Shown: piece after piece, positions 17,090 through 36,429 of the stretch
How the letters are laid out: every line of letters begins with the position of its first letter
Position numbering within the stretch: the first letter of the stretch is position 1
Assembly (NCBI RefSeq): GCF_020405225.1
Contig: NZ_CP084476.1
Span: 1-64,000 of the forward strand
Source: Natrinema sp. DC36
GTDB taxonomy: Archaea; Halobacteriota; Halobacteria; Halobacteriales; Natrialbaceae
DNA: 64,000 bases
Reading direction: 5' to 3'
Notes under the pieces: model-generated
Database searches by the model: none
What the model was told of the DNA's origin: nothing
Seen by the model: only the letters and a program-made list of their open reading frames with translations
Position numbers and translations under genes: made by a program

Positions 17090-17287
17090 GTGCCAACCGA
17101 TGCCTGCTCTGTCTGTGGTACAACCGAAAACCTCGAATGGGCGCACGAACCGACCGTCTACGATATCGTCTGTGTCTGTCGGGACTGTCGTGATGATATT
17201 CCGTCGTTGATTCCGATCCGGCAACTCCTACTCTCGCACTCTCTCAAGTCTACGGATTTCCCGTGGCACCTGTGTGCAGAATTTTAA
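17090..17287 (+). CDS. HNH-like zinc protein (65 aa)
   Basis: CSVCG (about 6-10), an H-containing centre (WAHEPT) and CRDC (about 31-34) resemble a reduced HNH/zinc module without a clear catalytic DH pair. GTG 17090 (MPTDACSVCG) is preferred to GTG 17069. Its 3' end overlaps the convergent gene 17250-17477 by 38 bases. Confidence 0.5.
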   Translation: MPTDACSVCGTTENLEWAHEPTVYDIVCVCRDCRDDIPSLIPIRQLLLSHSLKSTDFPWHLCAEF

Positions 17288-17477
17288 ATGATCGTGAACC
17301 ACAGAAACAGCCAGAACGAGGCCCGATCGCTTGGAGCCTTCCATTCGGGTACTTCCAAACAGGGGAGACGGACCCACACTTCTTGCAGCGCGCCGCTGCT
17401 TTCTCTTTGGTGGAATCGTTCACAGGTCTGAGAAGGCAACACGAACAATAAGCCGCGTGCACTACATTGCAGGGCAC
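17250..17477 (-). CDS. Small double zinc-ribbon protein (75 aa)
   Basis: CSCC near residue 12, CKKCG (31-35) and CFCGSRSF (57-64) give one clear ribbon and a partial second. The CxxCG...CxCGSxxF pattern is typical of ribbons in transcription-related proteins. It is the last gene of the long leftward series. Confidence 0.55.
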   Translation of the reverse strand: MPCNVVHAAYCSCCLLRPVNDSTKEKAAARCKKCGSVSPVWKYPNGRLQAIGPRSGCFCGSRSFKILHTGATGNP

Positions 17478-17839
17478 TCCCTCACTCTCTCAAGCACAGC
17501 CCCGGCCGTCTCGTCCCCAACGCCGTACACGCTCTCCAGTCGCGCCCGCTCGCTCTCGCGAAGCTCGTCCAGACTGTCGAACTCCCGGGCGATCGCCTTC
17601 GAGGTCGCCGGCCCGACGCCGTTGATATCCTCGACGACGAGTCGAATCTGTTCGTGGCGGTCGTCGACGGCCTCGCCGAGTCGGCGCTCGAGTTCGGGTT
17701 CGTCGATTCGCCCCTCCGAGTACAGGCGTTTGGCTTCGTCGATGGGACTCTCGTCGCTCTGGAGGTGGTCGTGAACGTAGTAGGCGAGCGTTCCCACGGC
17801 GACGACGGCGTAGAAGGCGGTTTCGAGGGCCTCGAGCAT
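17462..17839 (-). CDS. Membrane protein with SHOCT and helix-hairpin-helix motifs
   Basis: The 125-aa product has a hydrophobic N-terminal helix (about 5-22), a SHOCT-like segment (IDEAKRLYSEGRIDEPELERRL, about 33-54) and a double helix-hairpin-helix (INGVGPATSKAIA..., VYGVGDETAGAVL, about 70-118). HhH pairs bind DNA backbone without sequence preference. A membrane-anchored DNA-binding protein at the end of the leftward operon would suit DNA transfer or nucleoid tethering, which is inference. Confidence 0.75.
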   Translation of the reverse strand: MLEALETAFYAVVAVGTLAYYVHDHLQSDESPIDEAKRLYSEGRIDEPELERRLGEAVDDRHEQIRLVVEDINGVGPATSKAIAREFDSLDELRESERARLESVYGVGDETAGAVLERVRECPAM

Positions 17840-17843
17840 GGGG

Positions 17844-18200
17844 TTAGGCGTCCGGACGGACGAATCGCCAGTGAATGCCGGCAACGGTCGCAACCGCCAG
17901 CACGTAGCCGGCGATAACGAACGGGAACAGCAGCGTCGAAATGAATCCCGGGTCGGTAACATACGCAGTAACGATGGAGCCGACCGGCTGCCACCCGGTG
18001 AGCGTCGGGGCGAGGGCGATCGACCCGACAACGTCGCGAATGCCGACCGTTCCGCCCGGCGTGAGTGCCGTGTAGCCAGTTGCGGTCGCGGCTGTGAATA
18101 TTCGAGCAAGGAGTTCGACGGCGACGGCGTAGACAGCCAGCAGTGCGAGTCGGTTGGAAACGATACGGCCGATCGTCTCGGTTGTGAATCGGTTGAACAT
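17844..18200 (-). CDS. Polytopic membrane protein (118 aa)
   Basis: Three hydrophobic helices are visible at about residues 17-40, 52-75 and 90-112. The N-terminus is basic (MFNRFTTETIGRIVSNR). It directly precedes the SHOCT/HhH membrane gene, suggesting the two form a pair. Confidence 0.65.
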   Translation of the reverse strand: MFNRFTTETIGRIVSNRLALLAVYAVAVELLARIFTAATATGYTALTPGGTVGIRDVVGSIALAPTLTGWQPVGSIVTAYVTDPGFISTLLFPFVIAGYVLAVATVAGIHWRFVRPDA

Positions 18201-18220
18201 AGGTTTGAATGGGTGTTGGT

Positions 18221-18883
18221 CTAGTCGTAGTTCTCTAACGTCGCCTGTTCATGCTCGCGCCCATCGTCGTAGTCTTCGTACAGCCACGTCCCGACGGGCG
18301 TCCGCACGCCGTTCTCGGACTCTTTCGCGTACCAGAGGCCGGTGTCTTCGGGACGTAACCACTCGAGGTCGCCCTCGGCAACGTAGCCGATCGCGTCGGC
18401 GAGCACGCGATTCCACGAGCGCCAGTGGTCGGTATCGTCCATACCGGGCTGTTCCTCCGAACCCTCGCCGATCGCCCAATGGCACAGCTCGTGGAGTTCG
18501 ATCAGCGCCATGCACGCACCGAACGGCGGGAGTCGATCAAACGGGACCTCGGCGTCGGTCCACGCCGTCGGCGAGTAACTGTCGCCGAGTGCGGCAACGG
18601 CCATGTTCTCGAGGTAGTAGAAGACGACGTCGCCCGACTCGGCGGCGTACCAGTAGGCGTTCAGGTCCGCGAAGTCCTCGCCGTCGTCGTAGTACGCGGG
18701 CGGGCGGACCCACTCGTCGGTCTCGGGGAACTCGATTTTGCGGGCGTCGAAACAGTAGACCTTCCGCGGGTCGCCGTCGACGTGAACGGCGTATCGGGCC
18801 AGTACTTCGATATCGTCGAAGGTGTACCGCCGGAGCGGCGACGACGGCGGGAGTGTGTAGTCTGAGAGGTCGTCGGTGCTCAT
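18221..18883 (-). CDS. Zincin-like protein with HELCH motif
   Basis: The sequence LIELHELCHWAIGEG contains HExxH (His131-Glu132-Leu-Cys-His135), the zinc-binding signature of metallopeptidases. The surrounding helix is hydrophobic on one face as in true zincins, and acidic residues downstream (DDTDHW) could provide the third ligand. The N-terminal half is beta-rich. It may process a protein of the same operon or a host regulator, but it could also be an inactive fold. No signal peptide is seen, so it would act in the cytoplasm. Confidence 0.65.
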   Translation of the reverse strand: MSTDDLSDYTLPPSSPLRRYTFDDIEVLARYAVHVDGDPRKVYCFDARKIEFPETDEWVRPPAYYDDGEDFADLNAYWYAAESGDVVFYYLENMAVAALGDSYSPTAWTDAEVPFDRLPPFGACMALIELHELCHWAIGEGSEEQPGMDDTDHWRSWNRVLADAIGYVAEGDLEWLRPEDTGLWYAKESENGVRTPVGTWLYEDYDDGREHEQATLENYD

Positions 18884-18889
18884 GGTCGG

Positions 18890-19378
18890 TTACTCGAAGT
18901 CAGCCAGCGCCGTCTCGTCGGGCCGCTCGCCGCGGTCTCGTGGCTCTCCCTCGCCGAGTTTGAACGCTCGTGAGTCGATCAGCGTAAAGTGCGAGCGCGC
19001 TTTCGAGACGAGATCCCACGCCTCGCTCGGCATCGAACGGTCGTCGGCGTCGGGCTCGCGGTTCAGCATCGCTTCGTTGCGCAGCTCCCGGAGTTCGTCG
19101 AGACACTCGGATTCGTACCACTCGAGTTCCTCGAAAACCGGTTCGGTCACCCACTCCTCGAGCGTCGGGCCACGGTGAAAGGCCAGCCCGACGGCGTCGA
19201 GAAAGGCCCCACGGACGGGGAAGCGCTCGCCGTTTCCGTCCTCCCGGTCCAGCGCGAACCACAGCGTTTCGTCGCGCGTACACGCCGCCACGGGCCGCTC
19301 TTGTGTCTCGGTCTGTCGGTACAGCGCCCACGAACGGGCGTCCTCGTCGGTTCGGAATGCAAAGTCTGGGTCTGACAT
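18890..19378 (-). CDS. Unknown acidic protein (162 aa)
   Basis: The chain starts with a compact alpha/beta stretch (WALYRQTETQERPVAACTRDETLWF) and continues with a helical region (LEEWVTEPVFEELEWYESECLDEL). No motif is recognised. Separated by six bases from the zincin-like gene. Confidence 0.6.
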   Translation of the reverse strand: MSDPDFAFRTDEDARSWALYRQTETQERPVAACTRDETLWFALDREDGNGERFPVRGAFLDAVGLAFHRGPTLEEWVTEPVFEELEWYESECLDELRELRNEAMLNREPDADDRSMPSEAWDLVSKARSHFTLIDSRAFKLGEGEPRDRGERPDETALADFE

Positions 19379-19381
19379 GGA

Positions 19382-19624
19382 TTAGTCCTCGTTCCACTCG
19401 CGGACCTCAGCGAGTGCGTCCTCGAGTTTCCGCTGGTTGAACGGGTTCGGTTCGGCGTCGATCGCCGCCTCGAGTTGCGTCGAGTTCATGAGTCGCGCCC
19501 GGCGTTCGTAGCAGCGCGAGCAGAGATACCGGCCCTCGAGCGTGCCGAGCGGGTTCGTCTGGCACCCAGAGGTGTTGCACACCTTCGAGCGAACAGTGCC
19601 GGCGAACGTCTCGAGGAGCTTCAT
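19382..19624 (-). CDS. Zinc-finger protein (80 aa)
   Basis: CNTSGC (18-23) and CSRCYERR (37-44) form a compact zinc finger followed by a helix. ATG 19624 overlaps the upstream stop (19621). The C-terminal half is an acidic helix. Function unknown. Confidence 0.6.
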   Translation of the reverse strand: MKLLETFAGTVRSKVCNTSGCQTNPLGTLEGRYLCSRCYERRARLMNSTQLEAAIDAEPNPFNQRKLEDALAEVREWNED

Positions 19625-20430
19625 GCCCGCGCTCGCTCCGGCGTCCGCTGGTCGCTGTCGATCGATTCGACGTACTTGAAGCCCTGATTCGGGACGGTTG
19701 TCGGGCACTCGAGGTCAACTCGCCAGAGCGGCGAAAACCAGATTTTGCCGGTCTCGGTGCTGTGAATCTGTCCACAGGCGACGAGTCGGCCGTCTTGTTC
19801 GAACCAGATTCGCTGGCCGAACCGCGTCTGTTGGGGCGTTCCGCTCACCGTCCAATAGCACAGATGGTCGTCGGGAACGTTCGCCTCGAGTTTGTGATCG
19901 ATCTGTCCGTCGGTCGCGTGTACGAGTACGTCCTTGGGTGTCATATCGGGATCAGGGAGTTTGTCCATCGTCGTCGGGCCGTAGTCGAGTTGGTCCTCGT
20001 AGTCGTCGCCGCTGCGTGTGCCGAGTTTCGTCACGCAGTAGCCGTCGTGGCGTTCGACGAGCGGGAGTTCCATCACACGAATCGTCGTCGGGGCCGCACC
20101 GGGTCGCGTGAGAACCTGCTCATCGCCGTCGAACGCGAGATCTGTGAGATTCGGTTCGTTGACCGTATCCTCGAGTCGCTGGTAGGCTCGTGCGAAAAAC
20201 CGGGCGTCCTCCGTTGCCTTCGCGGCCACGCGGAAGTACGCCGCGTGAAAGGCCCCGTGCATCCCTGCCGAGACGGACGCGACCATGTAGACGCTGTATT
20301 CCTCGTCGGGCGTCTCGTCGTGGTGAACGTCGGGAAACTCGAAACAGTCGGGGCAGACTGCGTTTCGAGCGAGGTAGTTCTCGCGAGTGTCGAACGGCTC
20401 GTCACAATCGCTGCACGTGACTGTCTTCAT
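19621..20430 (-). CDS. Zinc-ribbon protein with possible PUA-like C-domain (269 aa)
   Basis: An N-terminal ribbon CSDCDEPF...CPDC (about 6-30) is followed by a large middle domain. The C-terminal part (GRLVACGQIHSTETGKIWFSPLWRVDLECP) resembles the strand order of PUA/EVE-type domains that read modified bases, but this is a pattern-level similarity only. ATG 20430 is used; ATG 20445 is an in-frame alternative. It follows the TOPRIM gene. Confidence 0.55.
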   Translation of the reverse strand: MKTVTCSDCDEPFDTRENYLARNAVCPDCFEFPDVHHDETPDEEYSVYMVASVSAGMHGAFHAAYFRVAAKATEDARFFARAYQRLEDTVNEPNLTDLAFDGDEQVLTRPGAAPTTIRVMELPLVERHDGYCVTKLGTRSGDDYEDQLDYGPTTMDKLPDPDMTPKDVLVHATDGQIDHKLEANVPDDHLCYWTVSGTPQQTRFGQRIWFEQDGRLVACGQIHSTETGKIWFSPLWRVDLECPTTVPNQGFKYVESIDSDQRTPERARA

Positions 20431-20477
20431 ATGTGATTTTAACACAATCTAATACTTGTACGTACCGCCGACAGGCG

Positions 20478-21971
20478 CTACTCTGACGCCCGATACCGAT
20501 CGATTCGGGCTTTGTTCTCCGCGTAGGATCGACTCGAGTCATAGATCGGATCATCGGGGAGTGCGGCCTCGCCGTCGGGAACCGTCGCGACGGGGATCTC
20601 GACCTCGCCGAGCAACTCTTGGACCATCGACTCCCACGCCCCGATTGCCGAATCATCGTCCATCATCCCGCGCAAGCGCTCGAAGACGTCGGCGACCTCC
20701 GCATACGCCTCGTTGAAATCCTCAAGCCATGCCTCCAGGTCCTCGAGTTCGTCGTCGACGCCGGCCTCTCGAAGCTTTTCTTCGATTCGAGACTCGACGC
20801 TATCCTCCCACTCGTCGCCGCGGCGGTCGTTTTTGTGCTTGAGGTTCGGGTCGGTGTAGCGCTCGAGCGCGTCGCGAACGATCCGGCGGAACTCGTCGGG
20901 GTGTTGCTCGAGGGCGTTCAACTCGGTCGCGCCGGCCCCGTGTTCCTGTTCCCACTCGGTAATCCGGCGGTTGTACGCCACGCCGCCGGTTCCTGTCGCC
21001 TCGCTTTCTTCGATCGGCTTTCGCGGGAGGTCTAACCCCTCTATTTGAGCTTTCGTCACGGCCAGTCGTTCGATCACGACGCGTTGCTCGAGGTCACCCC
21101 GATGATGGAGCCACGCGAGTTTCCCCGCCATGTTCGCCGGCATATCGTAGCCTTTCACGTCGAAATCGGCCAGATAGAGGATTACCGCCGGCTTCCCGGC
21201 CTCGTCGATTCGTTGGGCCAGCTCGTGGGCGACGGTTAGGGAGAGATCGCCCTCGCCTTCGACCACGACGTTACAGCCGTACTCGGCGGTGAGCCCGCCC
21301 CCGCCGCGGATGTAATCGGGCAGCGTCTTTTCGGACCACAGTTCGATGTGATACGGTGACTGGCGGGCCTCGTCGAACGACAGTTGCTCGCGTGCGCTCG
21401 AGGCCACGCGTTCGCTCACCCACTCCGAATACGGCGTCTCGTCCCTGTCAAAGACGAAGCCGGCTCGAGCCTCGGGATGCGGAATCGTAGGCGTTGCAAC
21501 CCCGGTCGGGGCGGGAAAACCCTCGGGGTCGGGCCGGAGAGTATGGTCTCCGTACTCTGTGACGGTTCGCGTATCGGCGCGCTTGTCGATAATCCCGTCC
21601 AGCGGAATATAGCCGAGGATCCGCGCGAGTACGGCACAGCCCTCGAGATAATCGTAACAGCGTTGGGTGTTGTCGTAGCGCCCCCACGAACAGTCGGTCG
21701 GTGGCTCCACGTCCATATCGGACATGTAGACGGTGTAGTGAACGCCGCGAACGTGGATACGGTCACTTTCGCGCTGGTCGACGGCCTGTCGCCAGAGACG
21801 GGCGAACCACTCGGCTTTCGCGTGGTCGGCGGCTGTGCCCTTGTACATCGGGTCTCGTCGCCGGCTCTGGATAAGCAGGTCGTCGACGTCGACGCCGTAC
21901 TGGTCGGCGAGTGCATCGATTTGGTCGCGTGGTGAGTCGTGCTGTGGCTCGCGATCGTGCTCATTAGGCAT
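20478..21971 (-). CDS. Stand-alone topoisomerase VI-A/Spo11-like TOPRIM protein
   Basis: The 497-aa product has the two halves of a TopoVIA/Spo11 A subunit. The first is a winged-helix (5Y-CAP-like) region with IHVRGVHYTVYM, where Tyr79 aligns by eye with the catalytic Tyr of the R-x-x-Y-Y motif. The second is a TOPRIM region with IELWSEK (Glu214) and ILYLADFDVKG (Asp269/Asp271), followed by VIERLAVTKAQIEGLDLP (299-316), the segment typical of phage and plasmid TopoVIA-like proteins. No ATPase (B subunit) gene is adjacent, so it resembles the 'Mini-A' class. It may cleave or relax DNA for replication or transfer. ATG 21971 was chosen. Confidence 0.8.
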   Translation of the reverse strand: MPNEHDREPQHDSPRDQIDALADQYGVDVDDLLIQSRRRDPMYKGTAADHAKAEWFARLWRQAVDQRESDRIHVRGVHYTVYMSDMDVEPPTDCSWGRYDNTQRCYDYLEGCAVLARILGYIPLDGIIDKRADTRTVTEYGDHTLRPDPEGFPAPTGVATPTIPHPEARAGFVFDRDETPYSEWVSERVASSAREQLSFDEARQSPYHIELWSEKTLPDYIRGGGGLTAEYGCNVVVEGEGDLSLTVAHELAQRIDEAGKPAVILYLADFDVKGYDMPANMAGKLAWLHHRGDLEQRVVIERLAVTKAQIEGLDLPRKPIEESEATGTGGVAYNRRITEWEQEHGAGATELNALEQHPDEFRRIVRDALERYTDPNLKHKNDRRGDEWEDSVESRIEEKLREAGVDDELEDLEAWLEDFNEAYAEVADVFERLRGMMDDDSAIGAWESMVQELLGEVEIPVATVPDGEAALPDDPIYDSSRSYAENKARIDRYRASE

Positions 21972-22243: not shown

Positions 22244-23185
22244 TCATGGAGTCGGTTCGAAGGTCGGTGTTGAACTCGTCGTGATGTGAACGCGGCCGTT
22301 ACGATGCTCCGAGACGTGACTATCATCCTCGAGTGCGGACAGTGCCGCTTGAATCTCGCCCTCGGCGACGCCGTACTCGTCGCTCACCGAGTCGAGAACC
22401 TTCCGCGTCGTCGTGTCGTAGCTTGAGCCCTCCGTGCTGAGTCGGTCGACGGCGTCGAAGGTCCACTTCTTGACCTTCCAGTCGGCCACTTCGTCGACGG
22501 TCGCCGGTTGCTCGCTTTTGTTGATCGATATGGCGTCAACGTAGGTTTTCAAAACGGCCTCGTCGGGCCACGGCAACGTATCGTACACTCCGACGATCGT
22601 CACCGAGTCGCCCGTACTCACCGTCTCGCAAAGATCGTCCCACAGATACACCGTTTCAATTGGGGGGTCGTCCATCGACGAGTCGGTCCGCTTGAGAACG
22701 ACCCGTTGAAAGTCGGCGATATCGGAGTCGTCCGTATTCAGCGACCACGCGTTCGTGTTCTCACACTCGTGATTCTGGCATTCGAACGGCTTGACGAGCT
22801 TCCCGCCGGGTTGGGACATTCGGTTTAGTGTCGCGCAGTGGCGGCATTCGAACGCTGCAACCTCCGCGAATGGTTTGACACCGTCGACGCTGACGACTTC
22901 CCCGTGAATGCCGAGTAGTTCGCCAAGATGATCTGAGCCATACTTTCCGACGCGATAGGTCCGTCCGTCGGGGAGATCGAACACGCGAAGCGCTATGTCC
23001 CGATAGCCGAGTTCCTCGAGCGTATCCTCGGCGGCGGTCAGTCCCGACAGCGGGTCCTCGAGCACGAGGTTGGCAAGGTTCTGGTCTGCCGACTCGAGTA
23101 CCGGCCACGGAACGCGAATGCGGCCGTTCGACCGGCCAGAAACGTACTTCGAAAGCGGACCTTCGAATACAGCAGTCCACTCCAT
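22244..23185 (-). CDS. MCM-like OB-fold protein lacking the AAA+ domain
   Basis: The 313-aa product matches the N-terminal half of MCM helicases: a helical A-like region, LGELLGIHGEVVSVDGVKPF (OB-fold strand, about 88-106), a zinc knuckle C114-x2-C117 ... C136-x4-C141, DFQRVVLKRTDSSMDDPP, and GDSVTIVGVYD (192-202). Residues about 240-303 look like the MCM C-terminal winged helix (AALSALEDDSHVSEHRNGRV). The Walker A, Walker B and arginine-finger region that should lie between is absent. It should bind DNA but cannot be a helicase alone. It overlaps the end of the ATPase gene (TAATG), which may supply the motor. Confidence 0.75.
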   Translation of the reverse strand: MEWTAVFEGPLSKYVSGRSNGRIRVPWPVLESADQNLANLVLEDPLSGLTAAEDTLEELGYRDIALRVFDLPDGRTYRVGKYGSDHLGELLGIHGEVVSVDGVKPFAEVAAFECRHCATLNRMSQPGGKLVKPFECQNHECENTNAWSLNTDDSDIADFQRVVLKRTDSSMDDPPIETVYLWDDLCETVSTGDSVTIVGVYDTLPWPDEAVLKTYVDAISINKSEQPATVDEVADWKVKKWTFDAVDRLSTEGSSYDTTTRKVLDSVSDEYGVAEGEIQAALSALEDDSHVSEHRNGRVHITTSSTPTFEPTP

Positions 23186-25590
23186 TATCGACTCACCTCC
23201 TGTAGACCTTTCTCGACTATACCCCAGTCAATTTCAAGAACCTGCTTTCCGACGGGTGTCAGCGTCCATAGCTGCCCTTCTTTCTCGAGACAGGACTTTA
23301 GCCCACTCTCGTTTGATGCATGGTGGCGTAATGCCGACTGGCCGAAATCGGCGTTTAGAGCGGCGTGTATCTGGTCGTAACTACGGAACTCGTTTTCAGC
23401 AACGAGTTCACACACGGTGATGAACGTTTGTCGGAGTTTCGCGTCTTTCCGGAGCCAGTCCGAGATCGTCCGCGGAACGTTGTGTCTCGAGGCGATATCC
23501 TCGTAGGTTGTTTCCTGGCCGATTTGCTCGAGCGTGATATCTTGCTGCCGATCGCCCGCACCGACGGGTCTGAGCGAGAGGTCCGCGGGAATGTCGTACT
23601 CGCGGCGCTGTCGGAGCACCCAGTCGATCAACCGCTCCGAGATCGCGTCGACGACGTCCTCGGGGTCGCCGATCGACGCCACGGGTTCGGGGAAGTCCGA
23701 CGGGAGGAGATACCACGCACCGACGGCCGGATTCTTGCTCGCCGGGAGCACGTCACCGGCCACGACGTCGACCCACCATTCGGCGTCGTCACCGTCGGCG
23801 AACGGATCGTCGCCGGTCTGTCGGACGCGAGCGCCCCACGCGGACCCGTACCGGTCGCGCCATACCTGGTCGCCGAGCCCGAGCCCGCACGGCGAGCCGC
23901 GCCACCGAATCGGCCAGTACGGCTCACCGTCGGTGTGGATCATCCCCTGCCCGGTATCGAACGTCAGTAGCTGGCCGAACAACTCGTCGTTGAAGTTCAT
24001 CATCTTGTCGAGTTCGGGGACCTGTTCCTGGCTCTGGCGGAGGAAAATCTTCGTGTCCATATTATTCCGAACCGACTTGAGAACGTCATTGAATTTCTGC
24101 GTCGATCCGAGCAACAGAACCCGACGAGAACCGCCCTGCGAGGTGATGATGCGGAACGTCTGTTGGAGCGCCCGTTTCTGGTCGCGATAGCGGGCGTGTT
24201 GAATCTGCGAGGGTGCGAGGTTCTTCAACTCCCGAACCTCGAGACAGACGCGGGGAAGCCGCGGCCACTTGTCTCGAGCGGACATGATTTTCTGGAGCCA
24301 GAGGTCCATAATCGTGTACTTGAACCCGTCGCTCGCGTCGATGAAGTTGCAACAGAGCACGGCCGCCTTGTCGTTTTCCTCGAGTAGGTCGTGGAAGTCG
24401 ATGTTAGTCGCCGCCTCGGGAGAGGCGATAAAGCCCTCTCCGGCGAGTCGGGCGAGTCGTTGGGCGGCCTTCTTGACTGCCTTTTCTGCATTGAGCGAGA
24501 ACGACGCCTGATAGGTTTCGACGCCGCTATCGGCGTGTCGGTCCTGTTCTTCGGTCCATTCGATCGTGGCCTCGAGTCCTTCCGCGAAATCGAACAGCAG
24601 GTTGATTAACTCGTCCACCTGCCCGGACCGATCTAGCGTGATTTTCAGCGCCTCTTTGATCCGCAACTCGAGGGACGGGTCCGAGTCAGTAACACCGGCC
24701 AGTCGAAGGATATCCTTCGGTGTGAGCATGTCGATGCCGAGCGTAAAGGGAACGAAGTTCGACGGGAGAATGTCCGGTGTGCCTTCCATCCGCGGGACGT
24801 ACACCTCCGCGTCCATCGGCCGGGGCTGTTGATTGAATCGCTCGAGGCTATCTTTGATCGCCTGTTCGTCGGCCGGAATCGCCAACATCGGCGTCTCCAT
24901 ACGGCCGTCGTCGTGGATTGAGACGTACTTGTAGCCGTGCTCACGCCAGAGGTTCATCCCGATAGAGGTTAGCGTCGAGTCTTTCCCTTCGCGGGGCTTG
25001 GCGATCGCTAGGATGTGGTCACAATCGTCGTGCGGTATAACGACCTCTTTTTCCTCCGGGTCGACCGGGTCGTCCGCTCCGATCCGACGCCAGCCGATCG
25101 GCGTCACCTCGTCGATATCCGGTGCGTGGGGGACTTCCTTCGGGTCCAGTTTCTCGAGGTAGACCGGTGCGCGTTGCGTGCGGTCAATCCCCGAATTGAC
25201 GTATCCGAGCCCTTTCGCGACGCCGGTTAGGACCTCGTACCAGAGGCTCACATTGGTATCCTGTCCGTTCTGAAACTGCCGGTGGATCTGGCGGAACTGA
25301 AACCCAGAGGCCGGCGTCGGCGGCCCCTCGGAGTGCATCACCGACGGCCAGCCCGGGTCGTGCCAGAGGTAGAGGTGTAGCTCCTCGAGTATCTGTTCGG
25401 CCGTCCGTTCGGTGTCCTCGCCGTCGACAATCGCAGCCTCAGCCTGTCGGTGGAGGTCTCGGACGTGCGCCTCTGTGTTCAGCGTCTCTTTGTGACGCTT
25501 TCGTTCGATTTTCTCGCTAAGTTTGTTTCGAGCGGCGGTGCGAGTGCCAGTGCGGTCCTGTGGCTGTAGGTCTCGGATTTGTGAACTCAT
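23185..25590 (-). CDS. FtsK/HerA-superfamily ATPase with degenerate P-loop
   Basis: The 801-aa product has AIAKPREGKDST at residues 195-206 in the Walker A position: GKDS replaces the usual GK[ST]. The Walker B site looks like RVCLEVREL (447-455), where the expected DE pair is altered. VLLLGSTQKFNDVLKSVRNN (491-510) matches the sensor region of HerA/VirB4-type ATPases. The C-terminal 110 residues look like tandem winged helices. Such ATPases pump DNA in packaging, conjugation or division. It is followed by the MCM-like gene and preceded by two large membrane proteins, so membrane-coupled DNA transport is the best guess. Confidence 0.75.
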   Translation of the reverse strand: MSSQIRDLQPQDRTGTRTAARNKLSEKIERKRHKETLNTEAHVRDLHRQAEAAIVDGEDTERTAEQILEELHLYLWHDPGWPSVMHSEGPPTPASGFQFRQIHRQFQNGQDTNVSLWYEVLTGVAKGLGYVNSGIDRTQRAPVYLEKLDPKEVPHAPDIDEVTPIGWRRIGADDPVDPEEKEVVIPHDDCDHILAIAKPREGKDSTLTSIGMNLWREHGYKYVSIHDDGRMETPMLAIPADEQAIKDSLERFNQQPRPMDAEVYVPRMEGTPDILPSNFVPFTLGIDMLTPKDILRLAGVTDSDPSLELRIKEALKITLDRSGQVDELINLLFDFAEGLEATIEWTEEQDRHADSGVETYQASFSLNAEKAVKKAAQRLARLAGEGFIASPEAATNIDFHDLLEENDKAAVLCCNFIDASDGFKYTIMDLWLQKIMSARDKWPRLPRVCLEVRELKNLAPSQIQHARYRDQKRALQQTFRIITSQGGSRRVLLLGSTQKFNDVLKSVRNNMDTKIFLRQSQEQVPELDKMMNFNDELFGQLLTFDTGQGMIHTDGEPYWPIRWRGSPCGLGLGDQVWRDRYGSAWGARVRQTGDDPFADGDDAEWWVDVVAGDVLPASKNPAVGAWYLLPSDFPEPVASIGDPEDVVDAISERLIDWVLRQRREYDIPADLSLRPVGAGDRQQDITLEQIGQETTYEDIASRHNVPRTISDWLRKDAKLRQTFITVCELVAENEFRSYDQIHAALNADFGQSALRHHASNESGLKSCLEKEGQLWTLTPVGKQVLEIDWGIVEKGLQEVSR

Positions 25591-27223: not shown

Positions 27224-27224
27224 C

Positions 27225-29506: not shown

Positions 29507-30087
29507 GAGTGGCCCTCCGTTGTGTCGGCGGTCGCTTCGCCGACCGTCTCGTCGGCGTACTCGTATTCTTCGGCGGGTCGGAGGAAGTGGAACGTCTCAC
29601 GACGAAGCTTCCGGCCCCGCTCGAGGAGGTCGCGGTAGTCGCCTTCCCACTCGTCGATTTCAGCGAGCATGGCCTTACAGCCATTCCGACCGGCGTAGCG
29701 TCGGAGTTCGCGTTTCACTTCGTCCTCGCTCGCACTTTGGAGACGTTCGTGCAGCCGCTCACGTTCGATCTTTTCGTATCGGTTCGTGAGTACCGGGCAC
29801 GCAATTCCGTAGTGCTCACAGTCGCGACAGTCGTCGGGGAAGTGGCTCGTTCCGTCCACGTCGACGGCGTACATTTCGAACTCGGTTTCGAAGTTCGCGA
29901 GTAGCGTTTCGACGTGTGTGAGTAGGGACGTGGCCGGCACCTCGTCGGCGTCGTCCATCCAGTCGAGCACGTCGTCTTGGAGGTCGGAGTCGTTGATGAG
30001 TCCGACCACGTCGTCGAAGTGCTCGTACAGTCTGTCGATCCGTTTCCGTCGCTGTTGGGCCTCTTCGGCCCGGTTTGTTGGTCTCAT
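29503..30087 (-). CDS. Helical cytoplasmic protein with Cys cluster (194 aa)
   Basis: ATG 30087 overlaps the upstream stop (30084). The protein is mainly helical and charged. A compact Cys cluster (DCRDCEHYGIACPVL, about 90-104) could bind a metal or an iron-sulfur cluster. The C-terminal half is strongly basic/acidic helical (RERLHERLQSASEDEVKREL). Context: membrane machine operon. Confidence 0.6.
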   Translation of the reverse strand: MRPTNRAEEAQQRRKRIDRLYEHFDDVVGLINDSDLQDDVLDWMDDADEVPATSLLTHVETLLANFETEFEMYAVDVDGTSHFPDDCRDCEHYGIACPVLTNRYEKIERERLHERLQSASEDEVKRELRRYAGRNGCKAMLAEIDEWEGDYRDLLERGRKLRRETFHFLRPAEEYEYADETVGEATADTTEGHS

Positions 30088-30299
30088 AGGATATCGGGGT
30101 TGATCGGTGGCAGGTCGATGGTTTCGCGGTCGGAATCCGGCGGCGTCACGGCGAAGCCCTCGTGTCTCGAGACGCGGAGCACGTAGGGGTCGCCGGGGCC
30201 GAAGGGGAACGCCGAGTCCGTGACGATATCGGCCGGAATGTAGACGCGTCGGGTTGATTCCGACGGTTCGTCGAACGTATCCGCGAACTGGAGCGCCAT
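30084..30299 (-). CDS. Small beta-rich protein, AbrB-like pattern (71 aa)
   Basis: The stretch STRRVYIPADIVTDSAFPFGPGDPYVLRV resembles the swapped-hairpin AbrB/SpoVT pattern (R-x-h-IP ... F/G-x-GD). DNA binding and regulation of the operon is possible. The similarity is short. Coupled by ATGA to the next gene. Confidence 0.5.
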   Translation of the reverse strand: MALQFADTFDEPSESTRRVYIPADIVTDSAFPFGPGDPYVLRVSRHEGFAVTPPDSDRETIDLPPINPDIL

Positions 30300-30463: not shown

Positions 30464-30760
30464 TCACGCTTGCCCCGCGATTTTCGCTCGCACGTTTGAC
30501 TCTTTGAGCAATCGGAGGTTGCCGCGGGCGAGAAACAGCATGAGGATCAGCAGCCCCACGCCAGCGAGCGCGAGCGCGTAGTTGTCGCCGACCGCGGAAC
30601 TCAGGATCAACGCGATTGCAGCCGTCGAGTAGATCACGTTCGACGTGAGCCCCGTGGCCGCCGAGACGGTGATCGACTGGTCGCCGCGGCGGTCGTACAG
30701 CGCCCCGCTGAGATAGAACGCCGTCCCGATCGCGACGAGCGCGAATAGGAGTCCGTTCAT
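30464..30760 (-). CDS. Membrane protein (98 aa)
   Basis: ATG 30760 overlaps the previous stop. Three hydrophobic helices at about 4-21, 38-60 and 64-83, ending in a basic tail (KESNVRAKIAGQA). A 164-bp gap with no credible frame separates it from the next leftward gene. Confidence 0.6.
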   Translation of the reverse strand: MNGLLFALVAIGTAFYLSGALYDRRGDQSITVSAATGLTSNVIYSTAAIALILSSAVGDNYALALAGVGLLILMLFLARGNLRLLKESNVRAKIAGQA

Positions 30761-30987
30761 CGCTCCCACCGCCGGCCGTTATCGCTGAGATACTTCGATT
30801 CGTATTTCGCCGCCGACGCGCCCGACTGTCGCTCTTTGAGGATTGCGAAGCCGAGTTTACCGCCGTAGGTGACGATCAGCCACAGGCCGCCGAGCACGAC
30901 GACGATGAGCCACCCACCGAACAGCAACGCCGGTACTGCGATGAGTGCGATACCGCCGAACGCAAGGGTTGTAATGTAATCTGTCAT
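30757..30987 (-). CDS. Small membrane protein (76 aa)
   Basis: ATG 30987 overlaps the upstream stop. A long hydrophobic region (about 4-50) forms two helices, followed by a polar basic tail (SKYLSDNGRRWER). Encoded between an exported protein and another membrane protein of the leftward series. Confidence 0.6.
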   Translation of the reverse strand: MTDYITTLAFGGIALIAVPALLFGGWLIVVVLGGLWLIVTYGGKLGFAILKERQSGASAAKYESKYLSDNGRRWER

Positions 30988-31922
30988 GGGTTGTGTGTCA
31001 CCGCCGCTGTGAGCGGCAGGGTGAGTGCATGGAGGGTCGCCGAAGCGCCAGCGAAGCCGGGGATAAGGTTTTGAATCCAGTCCGCACCGGCCATGTACGC
31101 CCGGTATTCGTGGGTCGCTTTGTCTACCATCGTTGGGTTGGCGATGAACTCTACCTCCGCATCGCTCTCGTCGAAGTGGAACGTCACCGTTCCCTCGCCC
31201 TCGTCTTTGTAGACCGGATCGCTCGAGTCGGTCTGAACGGGTATCCACCGGCCGTCGCCGATCCGGTAGACCGCCTGGTACTCCGTGATCTCTTTGTCGA
31301 GTGAGTCGTTCGACAGCGCGACAGACACGCTATCACCGGAACTGTTCTCCGGCGCGAGTGTGTATTTGCGCTGCTCCAAGTCGCCATCACCGAATATCGC
31401 CCCGAGTCCGAGGTCGATATCGGGTAGGATACCCGACGTGGCCTCTTTGGCGTCGCCGGTCCACTTGAGAGACGTGACGCGGAGCTTCGAGGGTGCGAAC
31501 GTCGCCGACTCGCCGCCCTCGAGCGCAAATTCGACCTTCGTGTAGGTCTCGTCGGCGTCGAAGTCGTGAATCGCTTGCCACGACGCGGTTTCGGTGCCGT
31601 TGTTCGCTTCGATCTCCCCGAGGTCGGCCGGGTCGATTACGTCCGGCGAGATTTCGACGACGTAATTCACACAGTAGCCGTTGGGATTCTCCGCTGAGAG
31701 GTGGACAAACCCGACGTTGGTGTCCACCGAGACCTCCGTGTTCTCGACCGTGCTCGAGGCCGTGCCGTTCGTCGCCTCCGTGACGGTCGTCTCGTCGCTT
31801 CGGAACGCATCATGTGTGACCGTCGTCTCGCAGGTTGTGTCGTCGTTTTGGGCCGCCGCAGGCGTCGCTGCCCCCAGCGGTACAAGGACCAACAGGACAC
31901 ACATGAGTAGTGCGCGACGCAT
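30984..31922 (-). CDS. Exported protein with C-terminal hydrophobic end (312 aa)
   Basis: A signal peptide (RRALLMCVLLVLVPLGAATP) is cleaved near residue 25. The mature part is acidic and Thr-rich with several NxT/NxS glycosylation sites. The C-terminus (FAGASATLHALTLPLTAAV) is hydrophobic and could insert in the membrane. A likely surface or particle component. ATG 31922 places the signal at the N-terminus. Confidence 0.65.
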   Translation of the reverse strand: MRRALLMCVLLVLVPLGAATPAAAQNDDTTCETTVTHDAFRSDETTVTEATNGTASSTVENTEVSVDTNVGFVHLSAENPNGYCVNYVVEISPDVIDPADLGEIEANNGTETASWQAIHDFDADETYTKVEFALEGGESATFAPSKLRVTSLKWTGDAKEATSGILPDIDLGLGAIFGDGDLEQRKYTLAPENSSGDSVSVALSNDSLDKEITEYQAVYRIGDGRWIPVQTDSSDPVYKDEGEGTVTFHFDESDAEVEFIANPTMVDKATHEYRAYMAGADWIQNLIPGFAGASATLHALTLPLTAAVTHNP

Positions 31923-31924: not shown

Positions 31925-32374
31925 CTATCGATCCCACCGCGGGAGATCCTTCCCGCGGGATTGTACCTGATCTTGCCAAACCGTGTTGAACGCCGGGATG
32001 AACCGCCAGATACCGAGGACGAATAGCGGGGCCAACGCCACGACTACCGCGGCCGTCAGTCCGAGTGTGAGTACAGCCGACCCGACGGCGACCATGATGA
32101 GGACGCCCGCGGCGGCCGTCTGTTGATAGGAACTCGATCGAATCCCCAGTGCCTTCGGGACCGTCTCGAGTGACCAGTTGATCGTCGAGGCGATCGCCGG
32201 GGGCAGCGAGTTATCGATGCTCAGCCACCCGACGAATCCGCGGAAGTTTCGCCACGTCCCGGCGGCTTGTGCCCCGGCGAATCGGGCGACCATGAGCGGC
32301 GCGAGTGCAACCGCCCGCACACCCGAATAGAGCGTACTGCCGACGCTTCGGAGTGATTTCGTGAGTGATGACAT
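31925..32374 (-). CDS. Membrane protein (149 aa)
   Basis: ATG 32374 follows the upstream stop by two bases. A Ser/Arg amphipathic N-terminus precedes hydrophobic segments at about 22-35 and 88-125 (VLIMVAVGSAVLTLGLTAAVVVALAPLFVLG). The C-terminus is soluble and basic. Not recognised. Confidence 0.6.
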   Translation of the reverse strand: MSSLTKSLRSVGSTLYSGVRAVALAPLMVARFAGAQAAGTWRNFRGFVGWLSIDNSLPPAIASTINWSLETVPKALGIRSSSYQQTAAAGVLIMVAVGSAVLTLGLTAAVVVALAPLFVLGIWRFIPAFNTVWQDQVQSRGKDLPRWDR

Positions 32375-32376
32375 GG

Positions 32377-32577
32377 TTATCGCCCTCCGATGAGATTCGA
32401 CAGTGCCCGGCCGGCGGCCCGGAACGGCCACGTAATGAGTGAGAGGAGTGAACCCGCGCCCTCTCGAGTCCGTCGGAGGGTGCGTTTCGATCGGGATTCC
32501 CACCGGATGTTCGCCGCCCGTCGCGGGTTGCCATACGGCTTCCCGTCGTAGTCGTCACCGTCTCGCTTCCAACTCAT
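32377..32577 (-). CDS. Small basic protein (66 aa)
   Basis: Unusually basic for this element (RSKRTLRRTREG) with a hydrophobic C-terminal helix (LLSLITWPFRAAGRAL). ATG 32577 overlaps the upstream stop. Basic, membrane-associating small proteins in such operons could contact DNA or lipid; this is inference. Confidence 0.6.
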   Translation of the reverse strand: MSWKRDGDDYDGKPYGNPRRAANIRWESRSKRTLRRTREGAGSLLSLITWPFRAAGRALSNLIGGR

Positions 32578-33263
32578 ACGTCCACCTCGCCGAGTAGCAG
32601 TTCGAAGACGGTCTGGCCGTCGTCGCCGAGTCCGATGTACCGCGAGTACTTGCCGGCGTGGTGGTTGATGTACTCGCTCGAGGGGAGTTCGTGATTCCCG
32701 TTGCCGTCCGTATCGATGAACTCGCGCCGGAACTCTGCCAGCTCGTCCGAACCGTTTTCGGCGGCGTCGTCCATCACCACGGCCTCGTAATCCGGGTCGT
32801 CGGCTTCCTCGAGTCGCCACTCCAGCGACGTGAACTCGTCCGTCTCGGTGTTGTAGCCCACGTCGATCGTCGTCGGGACTATCTCGTCGTCGCCAAGGGT
32901 TTTCGAGACCTGAATGTCGACGCCGACCGTCGTATCGCCGAGGGCGGTGACGCCCGACTCGGCGATGAGCCAGTTTCCGTAGGCGATCCAGTGCTCGCTA
33001 TTGGCGTTGAACTCATTTCGGATCTGGTCGGCCAGCACTTCGGCGTCCTCCGACCACGAGAGAACGCTCAGGCCGGCGAGTTGTCCGCCGATGAACGTCC
33101 AGGGGTCGAATGCAACGTCGCCGCTCACGCCGTCCGCGAGGATTCCCTGTTGGGATGTTTGTGCGCTCGCGCTCGTCGCGACGAGTCCGGCGGTACCGAA
33201 CGCGGTTGCGACCGCACCAGCACGCCGGCAGAACTGTCGTCTGTTTGGATCTGGTTGTGTCAT
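32574..33263 (-). CDS. Tat-exported protein (229 aa)
   Basis: The start NRRQFCRRAGAVATAFGTAGL is a twin-arginine signal with cleavage near residue 35. The mature protein is acidic and alpha/beta with repeated helices (VLADQIRNEFNANSEHWIAYGNWL). Function unknown. A 214-bp gap upstream holds the tRNA-like element at 33419-33464. Confidence 0.7.
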   Translation of the reverse strand: MTQPDPNRRQFCRRAGAVATAFGTAGLVATSASAQTSQQGILADGVSGDVAFDPWTFIGGQLAGLSVLSWSEDAEVLADQIRNEFNANSEHWIAYGNWLIAESGVTALGDTTVGVDIQVSKTLGDDEIVPTTIDVGYNTETDEFTSLEWRLEEADDPDYEAVVMDDAAENGSDELAEFRREFIDTDGNGNHELPSSEYINHHAGKYSRYIGLGDDGQTVFELLLGEVDV

Positions 33264-33464: not shown

Positions 33465-33477
33465 GGGCCGCGGGCCG

Positions 33478-33732: not shown

Positions 33733-33736
33733 TGCC

Positions 33737-34156
33737 TCACACCTTCGCGCGTCCGGTCCGGTTCTGTTCTCTCACACCCGCCACGTCGGCCATGAACCGT
33801 TCGGCTTCCCTGTAGGCCGCTTCGCGCTCGAGGCCCGCCGCAACGGTCTCGCTCTTTCCGTCCGGCCCCTGGTAGACGAGTTGCCACGTCCCAGAGAGTC
33901 CACTCGAGACGAGTTGGACGCGCTCTTTCAGACCGTGTTTCTTGCGAGTCCACGTCTTCCGAAGCGGGACATCGTCGTCACAGACCCAGTCGCCGTCGGG
34001 TTTGAATGCCGGGCCGGGCCGGATGCCCGTTTTCGTCGCCAGCGCATCGAACAGCGTCACGCCGGCCTCTGTCAGTCGGGGTCGCAGGGCGCGGCCGGTC
34101 GTGTCGATCGTGTCGTCGGTCGGCTCGAGGGAGCCGTGGGTATGGTCAGTTGCCAT
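33737..34156 (-). CDS. Unknown soluble protein, wHTH-like N-terminus (139 aa)
   Basis: ATG 34156 lies 12 nt after the T-arm-like hairpin. The stretch LRPRLTEAGVTLFDALATKTG looks like a winged-helix or coiled segment. The C-terminal part is basic (KTWTRKKHGLKERVQLV), then alpha-helical. It could be a regulator of the operon. Not recognised. Confidence 0.55.
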   Translation of the reverse strand: MATDHTHGSLEPTDDTIDTTGRALRPRLTEAGVTLFDALATKTGIRPGPAFKPDGDWVCDDDVPLRKTWTRKKHGLKERVQLVSSGLSGTWQLVYQGPDGKSETVAAGLEREAAYREAERFMADVAGVREQNRTGRAKV

Positions 34157-34167
34157 AAGGACCGCGC

Positions 34168-34203
34168 CCCCGGAATCGAACCGGGGCTCTCGAGAAGGGA
34201 GAG
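34168..34203 (-). other. Tandem stem-loops with tRNA T-arm
   Basis: On the leftward strand two hairpins abut: CTCTC-CCTTCTC-GAGAG (5-bp stem, 7-nt loop) and CCCCGG-TTCGATT-CCGGGG (6-bp stem, T-loop TTCGATT). No matching acceptor or D arm could be found within 80 nt upstream, so this is not a complete tRNA. It ends 12 nt before the start of the 34156 gene. Confidence 0.5.
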
Positions 34204-34258
34204 GTGCCACACGCAGGTCTATCCGCTCGCAGTTACTCAGAAGGTCAGTGCGTCTCGA

Positions 34259-35365
34259 TTACGCGAAGAGTCGGCGTCGGCCTGCGAAGAACAGTCCGAA
34301 GCCGGCGAGTGACGCGCCGCCGGTGCCGATCATGCCGAGACCGATACCGGAGAGGTAGAACGTCGACAGGGAGCCCCATCCGAAGGCGCTGCCGAGGTCG
34401 CTAACGCCCATGTCGGCCTGCTCTTTGAACAGGTCGGCGAGGTCCGCGCTCTCGAAGGAGTCGACGTCCGTGTAGGACTGCGAGGAGACGAACAGGTCGA
34501 CCTCAGTCGCGTCGGCCTGTGCGTCGCCGAGTTCGAACGTCCACTCGTCGTTGCCGTTGGCGTCGTAGACCGCGTAGGTGTCGGTCTCGTCGACCATATC
34601 GGTGTCCGCTTCCTGGTAGAACGCGAGGACCGGCGTGCCGTCAGCGGCCGCGCTCGCGCCGTAGATCAGGTCGCCCGCTTCCTTGTCTTCCATCGCGTCG
34701 CTGAACGCATCCGAGCCGTTGCTCGTCTCGTCGTTCAGCGTGACGGTCGTGTTGCTACCGTCGATTCCGACCGTGTTCTCGTAGGTGTGCAGGTCGGGTT
34801 TCTCGTCGCTCGAGGTGCCGAAGAGACCGAGCGTCCACGAGTTCAGCGAGAAGAAGCCCGATTCGGGCTCCTCGATGGTCGCCGAAGTGTCGTCGGCGGT
34901 CGTGACCGCGTAGGTGTTCGCGAACGTGATGTCCGTCTTGAACGAGGCCTCAGCGGTCGTCGTGTTGCCGTCGGCGTCAACGCCCCACGTCGTGACGGTG
35001 ACCGTCGTGTTTGCACCGGCGTCACCGGGCAGGTCCGACAGTTCGTCGTTCGAGATGTTGACCGTCTGGCTCGCGTCCGTGCTCGTGGCCACGTCTTCGG
35101 AGGTCACGGCGTAGGTTTCGCCGTCGTAACTGACGTTCATCTTGAGGACGGTCGTTCCGTCAGTTCCGAAGTCGGTGCCGTCCGCTGCGATACTCGTTGC
35201 GATGTCGTTGCTCGCGTTTGCCTCGAAGCCGGTGACTTGGTCCGTGCCGTCGCCGGCCAGTGTCGTCGTCTCTGCTGCAACGCCGCCCGTGAACGCCACG
35301 CCGACGGCCGAAACGGCCAGCAGCATGGTCATGAAGACGGCGAACGCTCTCGTGGTGTTCGTCAT
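34259..35365 (-). CDS. Signal-peptide/C-terminal-anchor surface protein (368 aa)
   Basis: An N-terminal signal (AFAVFMTMLLAVSAVGVAF) is followed by about 290 acidic Thr/Asp/Ser-rich residues with several N-glycosylation sites. A C-terminal membrane helix (LSGIGLGMIGTGGASLAGFG) ends in RRR. This is the layout of S-layer and particle-spike proteins of haloarchaea and their viruses. A 161-bp leader with a hairpin precedes it, hinting at separate expression. It is the best candidate for a major surface component of the element's particle or membrane complex. Confidence 0.7.
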   Translation of the reverse strand: MTNTTRAFAVFMTMLLAVSAVGVAFTGGVAAETTTLAGDGTDQVTGFEANASNDIATSIAADGTDFGTDGTTVLKMNVSYDGETYAVTSEDVATSTDASQTVNISNDELSDLPGDAGANTTVTVTTWGVDADGNTTTAEASFKTDITFANTYAVTTADDTSATIEEPESGFFSLNSWTLGLFGTSSDEKPDLHTYENTVGIDGSNTTVTLNDETSNGSDAFSDAMEDKEAGDLIYGASAAADGTPVLAFYQEADTDMVDETDTYAVYDANGNDEWTFELGDAQADATEVDLFVSSQSYTDVDSFESADLADLFKEQADMGVSDLGSAFGWGSLSTFYLSGIGLGMIGTGGASLAGFGLFFAGRRRLFA

Positions 35366-35452
35366 TGGAATTGTGTTGTGTTGAATGAAGGTTGGTCAGA
35401 AGTCGATGCGTCTCGTCCTCCCGGGTAGGGGTATCGGGTGGTGGAACCGGTG

Positions 35453-35469
35453 GCGGGATGATATCCCGC
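35453..35469. terminator. Strong hairpin upstream of the 368-aa surface gene
   Basis: GCGGGAT-GAT-ATCCCGC forms a perfect 7-bp stem in the gap between the stop of the 300-aa gene (35527) and the start of the 368-aa gene (35365). No T-run follows, so it is either a processing or attenuation site or a factor-dependent terminator. Confidence 0.4.
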
Positions 35470-35526
35470 GAGGTCGCAGGCGGCGGTACTCCTCCGGTCT
35501 CGAATGGCTGTGGGTGTGTCATGATC

Positions 35527-36429
35527 CTAGCTCACCTCTTTCGTATGCCCCTGAGTCACTCGCAAATTATTCGCCACGTTCGCAGCGCCCCACGTCACGG
35601 TCGCCCGGATCGTGCTATCGGTCGTCGTGTCGATCGTCGAACCCGCCGGGTCCACACTGTCGGCGTGGGCGTCGTCGAAGATGCTGTCCGTATACGTCGA
35701 GACCTCGCCGTTCTCGCCGCTCGAGCGGACAGTGATCGTCGTCCGAAGCGTAAAGGGCGCGTCTGTGACCTGCTCGGCGACGCTCGCCGTCGTGGCGATT
35801 ACCTGCCCGTCTAAGTACAGCGTGAAATCGAAGGTATCCGACCCGCTGGCGGTCGTGTACGCGCCTGCCAAATAGAGTTCGTAGACACGGCCCGTATGCA
35901 TCGAGTCGGCGGGGATGGTCGCCTCGAACACGTCCGTTTCGACCGTCGTATCGGAGACCGACGTGGTTTCGGTGAGGACGTTGGCCGCGAACATCGCATA
36001 TCGCCAGTGGTCTCCCGCGTCCGTGACCGTCGTCTCGCGGTCGCTGTTCCAGACCTGTCGGCCGAGAAGTCCGGGTTCTGGGAGATTTGCCTCGGTGTAG
36101 GTGTCAGGTACCACGTCGCCACGCCAGCGGCCGTTGGCGTCGATCCGAGAGTCGCCGTAGGTCGGCGTCGGCCCGGTAGTCGGGTCGTGGCCCCACTCGC
36201 CGTCGTCGGGTGTGTAGACTCGCCCGGTGTCCGCTGCGAGGAACACGTCGTAGTCGCCTGTGCTGTAGTCCTCGCGGTCGGCTTCGGCGGCGATCGCGAC
36301 CGTGGCGTCCTCGAGTTCCTCGTCGTCCCCGAACAGCGACCAGTCGCCAAAGAACGCGGGCGTGAGTGCTGCCGAGTGCATGAGTTGTCGTCGGGTTGGT
36401 CCGGCTCGGTCGCTGTGTGGGTCTGTCAT
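35527..36429 (-). CDS. Tat-exported beta-rich surface protein (300 aa)
   Basis: PTRRQLMHSAALTPAFF near residues 11-27 is a short Tat-like signal. The middle contains a repeat-like DGEWGHDPTTGPTPTYG segment. The C-terminal half (FDFTLYLDGQVIATTASV..., TLRTTITVRSSG) has the strand pattern of jelly-roll virion or fibre proteins. It is the promoter-proximal gene of the long leftward series. A receptor-binding or capsid-like role is possible, but unproven. Confidence 0.55.
   Translation of the reverse strand: MTDPHSDRAGPTRRQLMHSAALTPAFFGDWSLFGDDEELEDATVAIAAEADREDYSTGDYDVFLAADTGRVYTPDDGEWGHDPTTGPTPTYGDSRIDANGRWRGDVVPDTYTEANLPEPGLLGRQVWNSDRETTVTDAGDHWRYAMFAANVLTETTSVSDTTVETDVFEATIPADSMHTGRVYELYLAGAYTTASGSDTFDFTLYLDGQVIATTASVAEQVTDAPFTLRTTITVRSSGENGEVSTYTDSIFDDAHADSVDPAGSTIDTTTDSTIRATVTWGAANVANNLRVTQGHTKEVS

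Follow-up and report, generated by a model that had tools for sequence, protein, structure and literature searches.

The first 64,000 bases of a 79,583-bp contig (NZ_CP084476.1) from the 5.1-Mb genome of Natrinema sp. DC36, hereafter the window, carry the core of an element that, judged by its protein sequences, almost certainly belongs to the apHPVs, the vesicle plasmids of the pR1SE type. pR1SE itself is a plasmid of Halorubrum lacusprofundi that spreads via self-encoded membrane vesicles (PMC10818511, PMC10384203), and its family was surveyed and named apHPV in 2023, with 41 members in the survey (PMC10818511). With a probability of roughly three in four, the whole is best explained as a pR1SE-family core that provides for vesicle loading and whose ATPase, ORF25, faces two ways, with one part belonging to the membrane proteins and the other to the DNA. 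The family of the element is already known; the new parts are the hybrid motor of ORF25 and its partner, an MCM-like protein devoid of a motor. An earlier note on this DNA had proposed an unclassified vesicle- or DNA-transfer system, a guess that was right in kind, as both pR1SE clusters were found in order, but wrong in calling the system unclassified, since the family is present in the literature of 2017 and 2023 (PMC10818511).

Membership rests on all nine published core genes, which were found on the contig as open reading frames (ORFs) 6, 7, 8, 9, 17, 21, 23, 24 and 25, numbered by counting along the RefSeq annotation of pR1SE and setting this count against the cluster list of PMC10818511. 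Identity to the pR1SE proteins amounts to 28-37%, with BLASTP E values of 1e-13 down to <1e-160, and both clusters keep the published order, with the nine genes in this sequence and a variable region between the clusters. The survey recognised apHPVs by at least five of the six markers ORF6, 8, 17, 21, 23 and 24 on one contig, with the two clusters in order (PMC10818511); here, all six were recovered both in BLASTP searches against pR1SE and with profiles made for this analysis. In addition, two hallmarks of the family are present, namely the ORF7 subtilase (Peptidase_S8, 7e-38) and the ORF25 ATPase with its predicted HerA/VirB4 fold, and the 79,583-bp contig of a haloarchaeon agrees with the mostly plasmid-borne occurrence of apHPVs in Halobacteria. 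The comparison with pR1SE, which the earlier note had recommended, thus proved decisive, with ORF25 sharing 37% identity over 98% of its length with the pR1SE protein (NZ_KX687704.1).

Gene order across haloarchaea, a second comparison recommended there, likewise revealed a conserved block. According to the profiles, which were searched over 29 elements and underlie the gene counts out of 29 given below, ORF21-ORF25 occur in 29/29 elements, while ORF6-9, ORF17-19 and two further genes occur in 24 to 27 of them. These two genes, at 32574-33263 (27/29) and 31925-32374 (24/29), are conserved in spite of their location in the 'variable region', where the published map places the homologue of the former (PMC10818511), and ORF22, present in every element, is missing from the core table of the survey (PMC10818511). 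A search with ORF25 matched 14 haloarchaeal plasmids, pR1SE among them, and among 392 genomes sampled from the order, 25 contained ORF25, representing 16 of 95 genera. Neither of the outcomes which the earlier note had named as speaking against it, a block that is not conserved or homologues in a host chromosomal pathway, was encountered. As a separate observation, a 3.2-Mb chromosome (L046 of genome G303, 1-5957) carries only ORF20-25 and the homologue of a gene found upstream of ORF6 ('ORFup'), with no gene of cluster 1 within the 20 kb examined and with a pilin-like gene and ordinary genes of the host as neighbours; from its gene content it may represent a loading module that has been stripped down, or else a remnant.

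The leftward genes between 36429 and 17250 correspond to cluster 2 and its 3' flank, whereas ORF6, ORF7 and ORF8 of cluster 1 lie upstream at 42087-49096. Acidic protein composition and a third-position GC content of haloarchaeal type characterise the 25 leftward ORFs of this run, which are joined mostly at distances of -4 to +20 bp and encode exported or anchored proteins, membrane proteins, the ATPase, the MCM-like protein, a TOPRIM protein and a helix-hairpin-helix (HhH) protein. The earlier note had listed these protein types correctly; its count of about 24 genes with small gaps or overlaps holds for most junctions but passes over five larger gaps, i.e. 161 bp (g01/g02), 102 bp (g02/g03), 214 bp (g04/g05), 164 bp (g10/g11) and 272 bp past the MCM-like gene. 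Because of these gaps of 102-272 bp, the block is likely to give rise to several transcripts. Moreover, the same-strand block does not begin at 36429, as had been supposed, but is extended upstream to 49703 by the conserved cluster 1, and since a variable stretch (36522-40956), which carries genes for a recombinase and an HNH protein as well as a plus-strand gene (521 aa), splits the leftward genes, they do not form the one unbroken operon that had been proposed. The insert between ORF8 and ORF9 amounts to about 6.6 kb (35527-42019) in total.

The ORF25 homologue (23185-25590, minus strand; 801 aa; 29/29 elements) is a predicted coupling or packaging ATPase. In an AlphaFold2 model with a predicted local distance difference test (pLDDT) score of 68, it comprises a helical N-domain from residue 1 to about 128, a HerA/VirB4 motor at 139-570 and a C-terminal part of helices resembling a winged helix-turn-helix (wHTH) at 693-801. 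The model matches HerA (4d2i) with Z 20.9 and a root-mean-square deviation (rmsd) of 4.2 over 317 residues, VirB4 (4ag6) with Z 19.2, the coupling protein TrwB (1e9s) with Z 16.5 and the packaging NTPase of the virus STIV2 (4kfr) with Z 12.5, and the Walker A motif is retained in 27/29 ORF25 proteins. At the level of sequence, no family was matched above curated cut-offs in Pfam, none was found in PHROGs or NCBIfam, and a sequence-profile search of the PDB yielded nothing convincing (best E 0.024).

From pairwise comparison of its segments, ORF25 is a natural chimera with a breakpoint near residues 105-132. ORF17 and ORF21-24 share 60-76% identity with a group comprising pHTUR05, Natrinema thermotolerans A29, pHALXA03 and Natrialba elements, and merely 20-35% with a second group consisting of pHLAJ5I, G005 and G079. 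Residues 1-80 of ORF25 follow the same pattern (55-75% to the pHTUR05 group versus 14-32% to the pHLAJ5I group). From about residue 121 onwards the affinity reverses, and beyond residue 132 identity is 73% to pHLAJ5I versus 49% to pHTUR05; the MCM-like protein sides with this latter part, sharing 56-70% identity with the pHLAJ5I group versus 29-33% with the pHTUR05 group. Since the N-domain of the model ends at 128 and the alpha/beta motor begins at 139, the switch coincides with a predicted domain boundary. The TOPRIM protein was considered as a further part of the swapped pair and rejected, because, in the elements that have it, it is roughly as near to one lineage as to the other, and because its inheritance is linked poorly to that of the MCM-like protein and not tightly to that of the ATPase pair as a whole. 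In Natronorubrum daqingense (NZ_CP019329; G222:C3:56591-60782), the intact ORF25 is separated from the MCM-like gene by a second, broken copy, which possibly records a recent motor swap.

The same division is apparent throughout the family when linkage is expressed as the correlation of pairwise identities between proteins or segments over the 29 elements (17 for comparisons with the MCM-like protein), values that are not independent, as the elements are related to each other. Residues 1-105 of ORF25 correlate with ORF24 (0.69), ORF23 (0.63), ORF21 (0.57) and ORF22 (0.53) and less with the protein's own motor (0.28). The motor (131-600), on the other hand, correlates with the MCM-like protein (0.78) and hardly with ORF24 (0.16), as does the C-terminus (681-801), with values of 0.68 and 0.14, respectively. 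Omitting the element of the window alters the correlations little, and among 110-residue tiles the step from 1-114 to 115-229 of ORF25 is the weakest link between neighbours (0.27) anywhere from ORF21 to the MCM-like gene. A fusion of the ORF25 C-terminus to the MCM-like protein in L066 was discarded as evidence of a physical link, being a decayed fragment next to a broken ORF25 and TOPRIM.

The partner gene (22244-23185, minus strand; 313 aa) encodes an OB fold (Pfam MCM_OB, 8e-20), a zinc site of four conserved cysteines and a C-terminal helix-turn-helix. The NCBIfam MCM domain matches only with profile positions 35-258 of 682, no AAA+ domain was found with Pfam or NCBIfam, and Walker A occurs in 0/17 homologues. 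Hence, the designation 'MCM-like' in the earlier note applies to the OB/zinc part and the C-terminal helix-turn-helix but not to the absent AAA+ domain. Most of the 17 elements have this gene adjoining ORF25, and those MCM-like matches of the genome search that outscore every ordinary MCM sit beside ORF25. The survey took the MCM genes near the core in 20 elements as candidate replication genes (PMC10818511); those of the short form lack the AAA+ domain and therefore cannot be helicases. Tentatively, and with odds closer to one in three than to even, the protein may be an MCM relic, a DNA-gripping part with a winged helix, which together with a HerA/VirB4-type pump would form a DNA-selecting half that is exchanged as a cassette and joined via a swappable N-terminal adaptor.

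The following scheme of vesicle formation would accommodate these features. By analogy with pR1SE, cluster 1 (ORF6-9) together with ORF17 would coat plasmid vesicles and form their surface, ORF7 would process coat and surface proteins, and cluster 2, within which the survey assigned almost no function (PMC10818511), would accomplish plasmid loading. As the gene histories suggest, ORF21-24 may constitute a membrane station on which the helical N-domain of ORF25 is held, while the motor, the C-terminal domain and the motorless MCM may build a unit of their own on the DNA side, which would choose plasmid DNA, take hold of it and pump it into the vesicle during budding. The hinge between N-domain and motor would then be the meeting point of the two sides, and plasmids would exchange membrane side and DNA side independently. 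This two-sided model of ORF25, derived from sequence comparison, has about an even chance of being correct, whereas operation of the vesicle route in this plasmid, by analogy with pR1SE, is probable. In pR1SE, vesicles contain plasmid proteins of both clusters and infect plasmid-free cells (PMC10818511, PMC10384203). Natural recombinants of this kind provide a map that distinguishes the part of the motor facing the membrane complex from the part tied to the choice of DNA, and identify a partner which the survey had classed as a replication gene. A list of uncharacterised proteins is thereby turned into specific binding and deletion tests, in-frame deletion being established in the laboratory system of pR1SE and Halorubrum lacusprofundi (PMC10102395). 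The map also bears on the evolution of virus-like DNA packaging by non-viral elements.

Several points weigh against this explanation. In the vesicles of pR1SE, ORF25 went undetected, as would be expected of a loading motor that stays behind, although this is no proof thereof (PMC10818511); infectious plasmid vesicles have been demonstrated for pR1SE only; and no deletion study of pR1SE genes was found in the pR1SE literature examined. Moreover, pR1SE lacks the motorless MCM, so that this protein is not essential in all members of the family. The structural models are of moderate confidence (pLDDT 68 for ORF25 and 57 for ORF24), and the contrast in correlations for the entire ORF25, taken by itself, falls short of significance (bootstrap -0.06 to 0.47). 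Without the window, the contrasts for the N-domain (-0.01 to 0.49) and the motor (-0.06 to 0.56) each just span zero, and only the C-terminal contrast stays clear of it (0.12 to 0.65).

The latter figures lend weight to the most serious alternative, namely that the chimera reflects a mere recombination hot spot in conserved DNA and is devoid of functional meaning, an explanation to which we assign an appreciable likelihood somewhat short of one half. Recombination among the elements is frequent, breakpoints are common in well-conserved genes, and the N-domain and ORF24 are also physical neighbours. Nevertheless, the N-domain is linked better to ORF21, some 4 kb away, than to the adjoining motor, and the switch coincides with the predicted domain boundary.

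Contact-dependent conjugation by a divergent archaeal type IV secretion system, with the exported proteins serving adhesion or mating instead of forming a coat, is improbable. The predicted resemblance of ORF25 to VirB4 (Z 19) and TrwB (Z 16), the membrane proteins ORF22-24 and a mating-pair type T call by MOB-suite for one relative would suit such a system, but all 14 related plasmids in PLSDB are listed as non-mobilizable, and the coat cluster is co-inherited in 24-27/29 elements. Furthermore, ORF25 is the only pR1SE core protein that was not found in vesicles, and these vesicles infect plasmid-free cells in the absence of cell contact (PMC10818511, PMC10384203). Among the window proteins scanned, no relaxase was found, although the plasmid as a whole was not subjected to a search aimed at relaxases. 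Marginally less probable still is an inactive remnant residing on a plasmid: the HNH gene between ORF6 and ORF7 and the recombinase/HNH insert in the variable region would be in line with decay, but the core frames, including those flanking the HNH gene, are all open and of normal length, and the plasmid carries RepH, Orc1/Cdc6 and ParA genes. A pleolipovirus-like virus with a membrane envelope is very improbable in spite of the exported anchored proteins and the budding, non-lytic and chronic release of pR1SE vesicles (PMC10384203), as the shared genes in the published network lie outside the core only (PMC10818511) and the comparison suggested by the earlier note gave no sequence match of ORF25, ORF23 and ORF6 in 50,697 phage records, a negative that covers these three proteins and is to be read with the rapid divergence of spikes in mind; ORF25 had no match in IMG/VR either, and on these searches a virus origin was set aside.

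The remaining members of the two clusters, all on the minus strand, are as follows in the order of the leftward block. ORFup (49107-49703; 198 aa), upstream of ORF6, has a homologue in pR1SE (28%) and occurs in 16/29 elements. The ORF6 homologue (45779-49096; 1105 aa) is exported, bears a C-terminal transmembrane (TM) segment and a laminin-G-like domain near its N-terminus (Pfam Laminin_G_3), and shares 28% identity with pR1SE ORF6 over 1011 aa. Its end overlaps by 19 bp with a non-core gene for an HNH homing-type endonuclease (44535-45797; 420 aa; Pfam HNH_repeat and HNH, zinc-ribbon-like motifs); as relatives carry no HNH gene at this place, it has the appearance of a homing endonuclease that has entered the cluster at the junction of ORF6 with ORF7. 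The latter, an S8 subtilisin-like protease (42885-44432), is 32% identical to pR1SE ORF7, and the exported ORF8 homologue (42087-42875) is 30% identical to its counterpart (E 4e-21). Within the insert between ORF8 and ORF9, the gene at 40958-42019 was considered as ORF9 and ruled out, homology assigning ORF9 to 34259-35365. The product of 39439-40956 and that of 35527-36429, which has a Tat-like signal, are without homologues in the other 28 elements and are possible host-recognition variables, and between them an HNH gene and a tyrosine recombinase form an insert of the variable region (36522-37495).

The ORF9 homologue (34259-35365; 27/29) is exported with a C-terminal anchor and shares 29% identity (E 1e-13) with pR1SE ORF9 and 57-63% with the counterparts of NthA29, pHALXA03 and Halomontanus. 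It is followed by the two conserved genes mentioned above, an exported 229-aa protein with a Tat-like signal (32574-33263; pR1SE homologue at L008:16713-17450) and a small membrane protein (31925-32374; L008:17450-17833), and by the exported ORF17 homologue (30984-31922; 35% to pR1SE, E 1e-41). Next come a small membrane protein, ORF18 (30757-30987; 27/29), the two-TM protein ORF19 (30464-30760; 24/29) and the 71-aa ORF20 (30084-30299; 43% to pR1SE). ORF21 (29503-30087) contains a CxxCxHYxxxCP motif that is conserved in 26/29 elements and likely metal-binding. ORF22 (28481-29506) is a two-TM protein, ORF23 (27225-28484; 35% to pR1SE, E 3e-61) is exported and anchored, and ORF24 (25601-27223) has five predicted TMs; none of the three matched Pfam above curated cut-offs. 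For residues 391-489 of ORF24 a cytosolic winged helix is predicted (Z ~10, rmsd ~2 over 70 residues; model pLDDT 57). The whole-protein fold gave no significant Foldseek match (best E 9e-3), a sequence-profile search of the PDB gave no match for ORF24, and the survey of 2023 likewise reported no structural homologue (PMC10818511). Past the motorless MCM lie a TOPRIM/topoisomerase-like gene (20478-21971; PHROG 6247 'DNA topoisomerase', 2e-19; 27% to pR1SE; 20/29) and an accessory flank of seven small genes (17250-20430), of which that of the HhH protein (17462-17839) occurs in 11/29 elements and the others are rare.

In addition, the contig bears its own RepH, Orc1/Cdc6, ParA and recombinase genes. 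On the plus strand, a tyrosine recombinase (15312-16541) is 45% identical to the pR1SE and 64% to the pHALXA03 integrase, and an Orc1/Cdc6 replication initiator is encoded at 54666-55703. The RepH-type replication protein at 58096-61653 is a homologue of pR1SE ORF1 (29.5% over 1088 aa, E 2e-86), also matching annotated RepH proteins (32%, E 1e-104) and a PHROG replication protein (9e-63). The survey found a homologue of ORF1 in none of the new apHPVs (PMC10818511), a statement that needs revising because RepH homologues are present here and on two further plasmids with ORF25 and its neighbours (NZ_CP095494 and NZ_CP019329). As side observations, a PAPS-reductase-like protein with weak SspD similarity and, next after it, a candidate defence protein of the DUF6884/PDC-M57A type are encoded at 11339-13185 (plus strand), a pair that possibly serves defence or DNA modification on a vesicle plasmid, and genes for a C5-cytosine methylase and for an N6/N4 methylase lie at contig bases 67140-70464 (L016:3140-6464).

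Among known systems, the closest is pR1SE of Halorubrum lacusprofundi R1S1 (apHRPV1), which shares with the present element both clusters in the same order with the nine core genes, a RepH-like ORF1, Orc1/Cdc6-type ATPases, a homologous integrase and a TOPRIM-like gene near ORF25. It differs in that protein identity is low throughout, the motorless MCM is lacking, the TOPRIM gene lies on the opposite strand, and the HNH gene inside cluster 1 is a feature of the present element. The plasmids pHTUR05 of Haloterrigena turkmenica, unnamed2 of Natrinema thermotolerans A29 and pHALXA03 of Halopiger xanaduensis resemble the element in ORF17 and ORF21-24 (61-76%), in the first 80 residues of ORF25 (55-75%) and in TOPRIM (79-85%) but diverge in ORF25 beyond residue 132 (49-51%) and in the MCM-like protein (29-33%), whereas pHLAJ5I of Halobiforma lacisalsi AJ5 is close in ORF25 from residue 132 (73%) and in the MCM-like protein (65%) but distant in ORF21-24 (21-32%) and the ORF25 N-domain (~23%), with no TOPRIM gene found in the stretch compared. 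In relation to cellular MCM helicases, the partner protein retains the OB fold, the zinc site and the C-terminal helix-turn-helix, whereas Walker A and AAA+ are absent in all 17 homologues examined. Finally, ORF25 shares its predicted motor fold with the DNA-pumping ATPases of the HerA/VirB4/TrwB type (Z 16-22), from which it is set apart by the absence of Pfam, PHROGs and NCBIfam matches, a helical N-domain of its own and a wHTH-like C-terminus.

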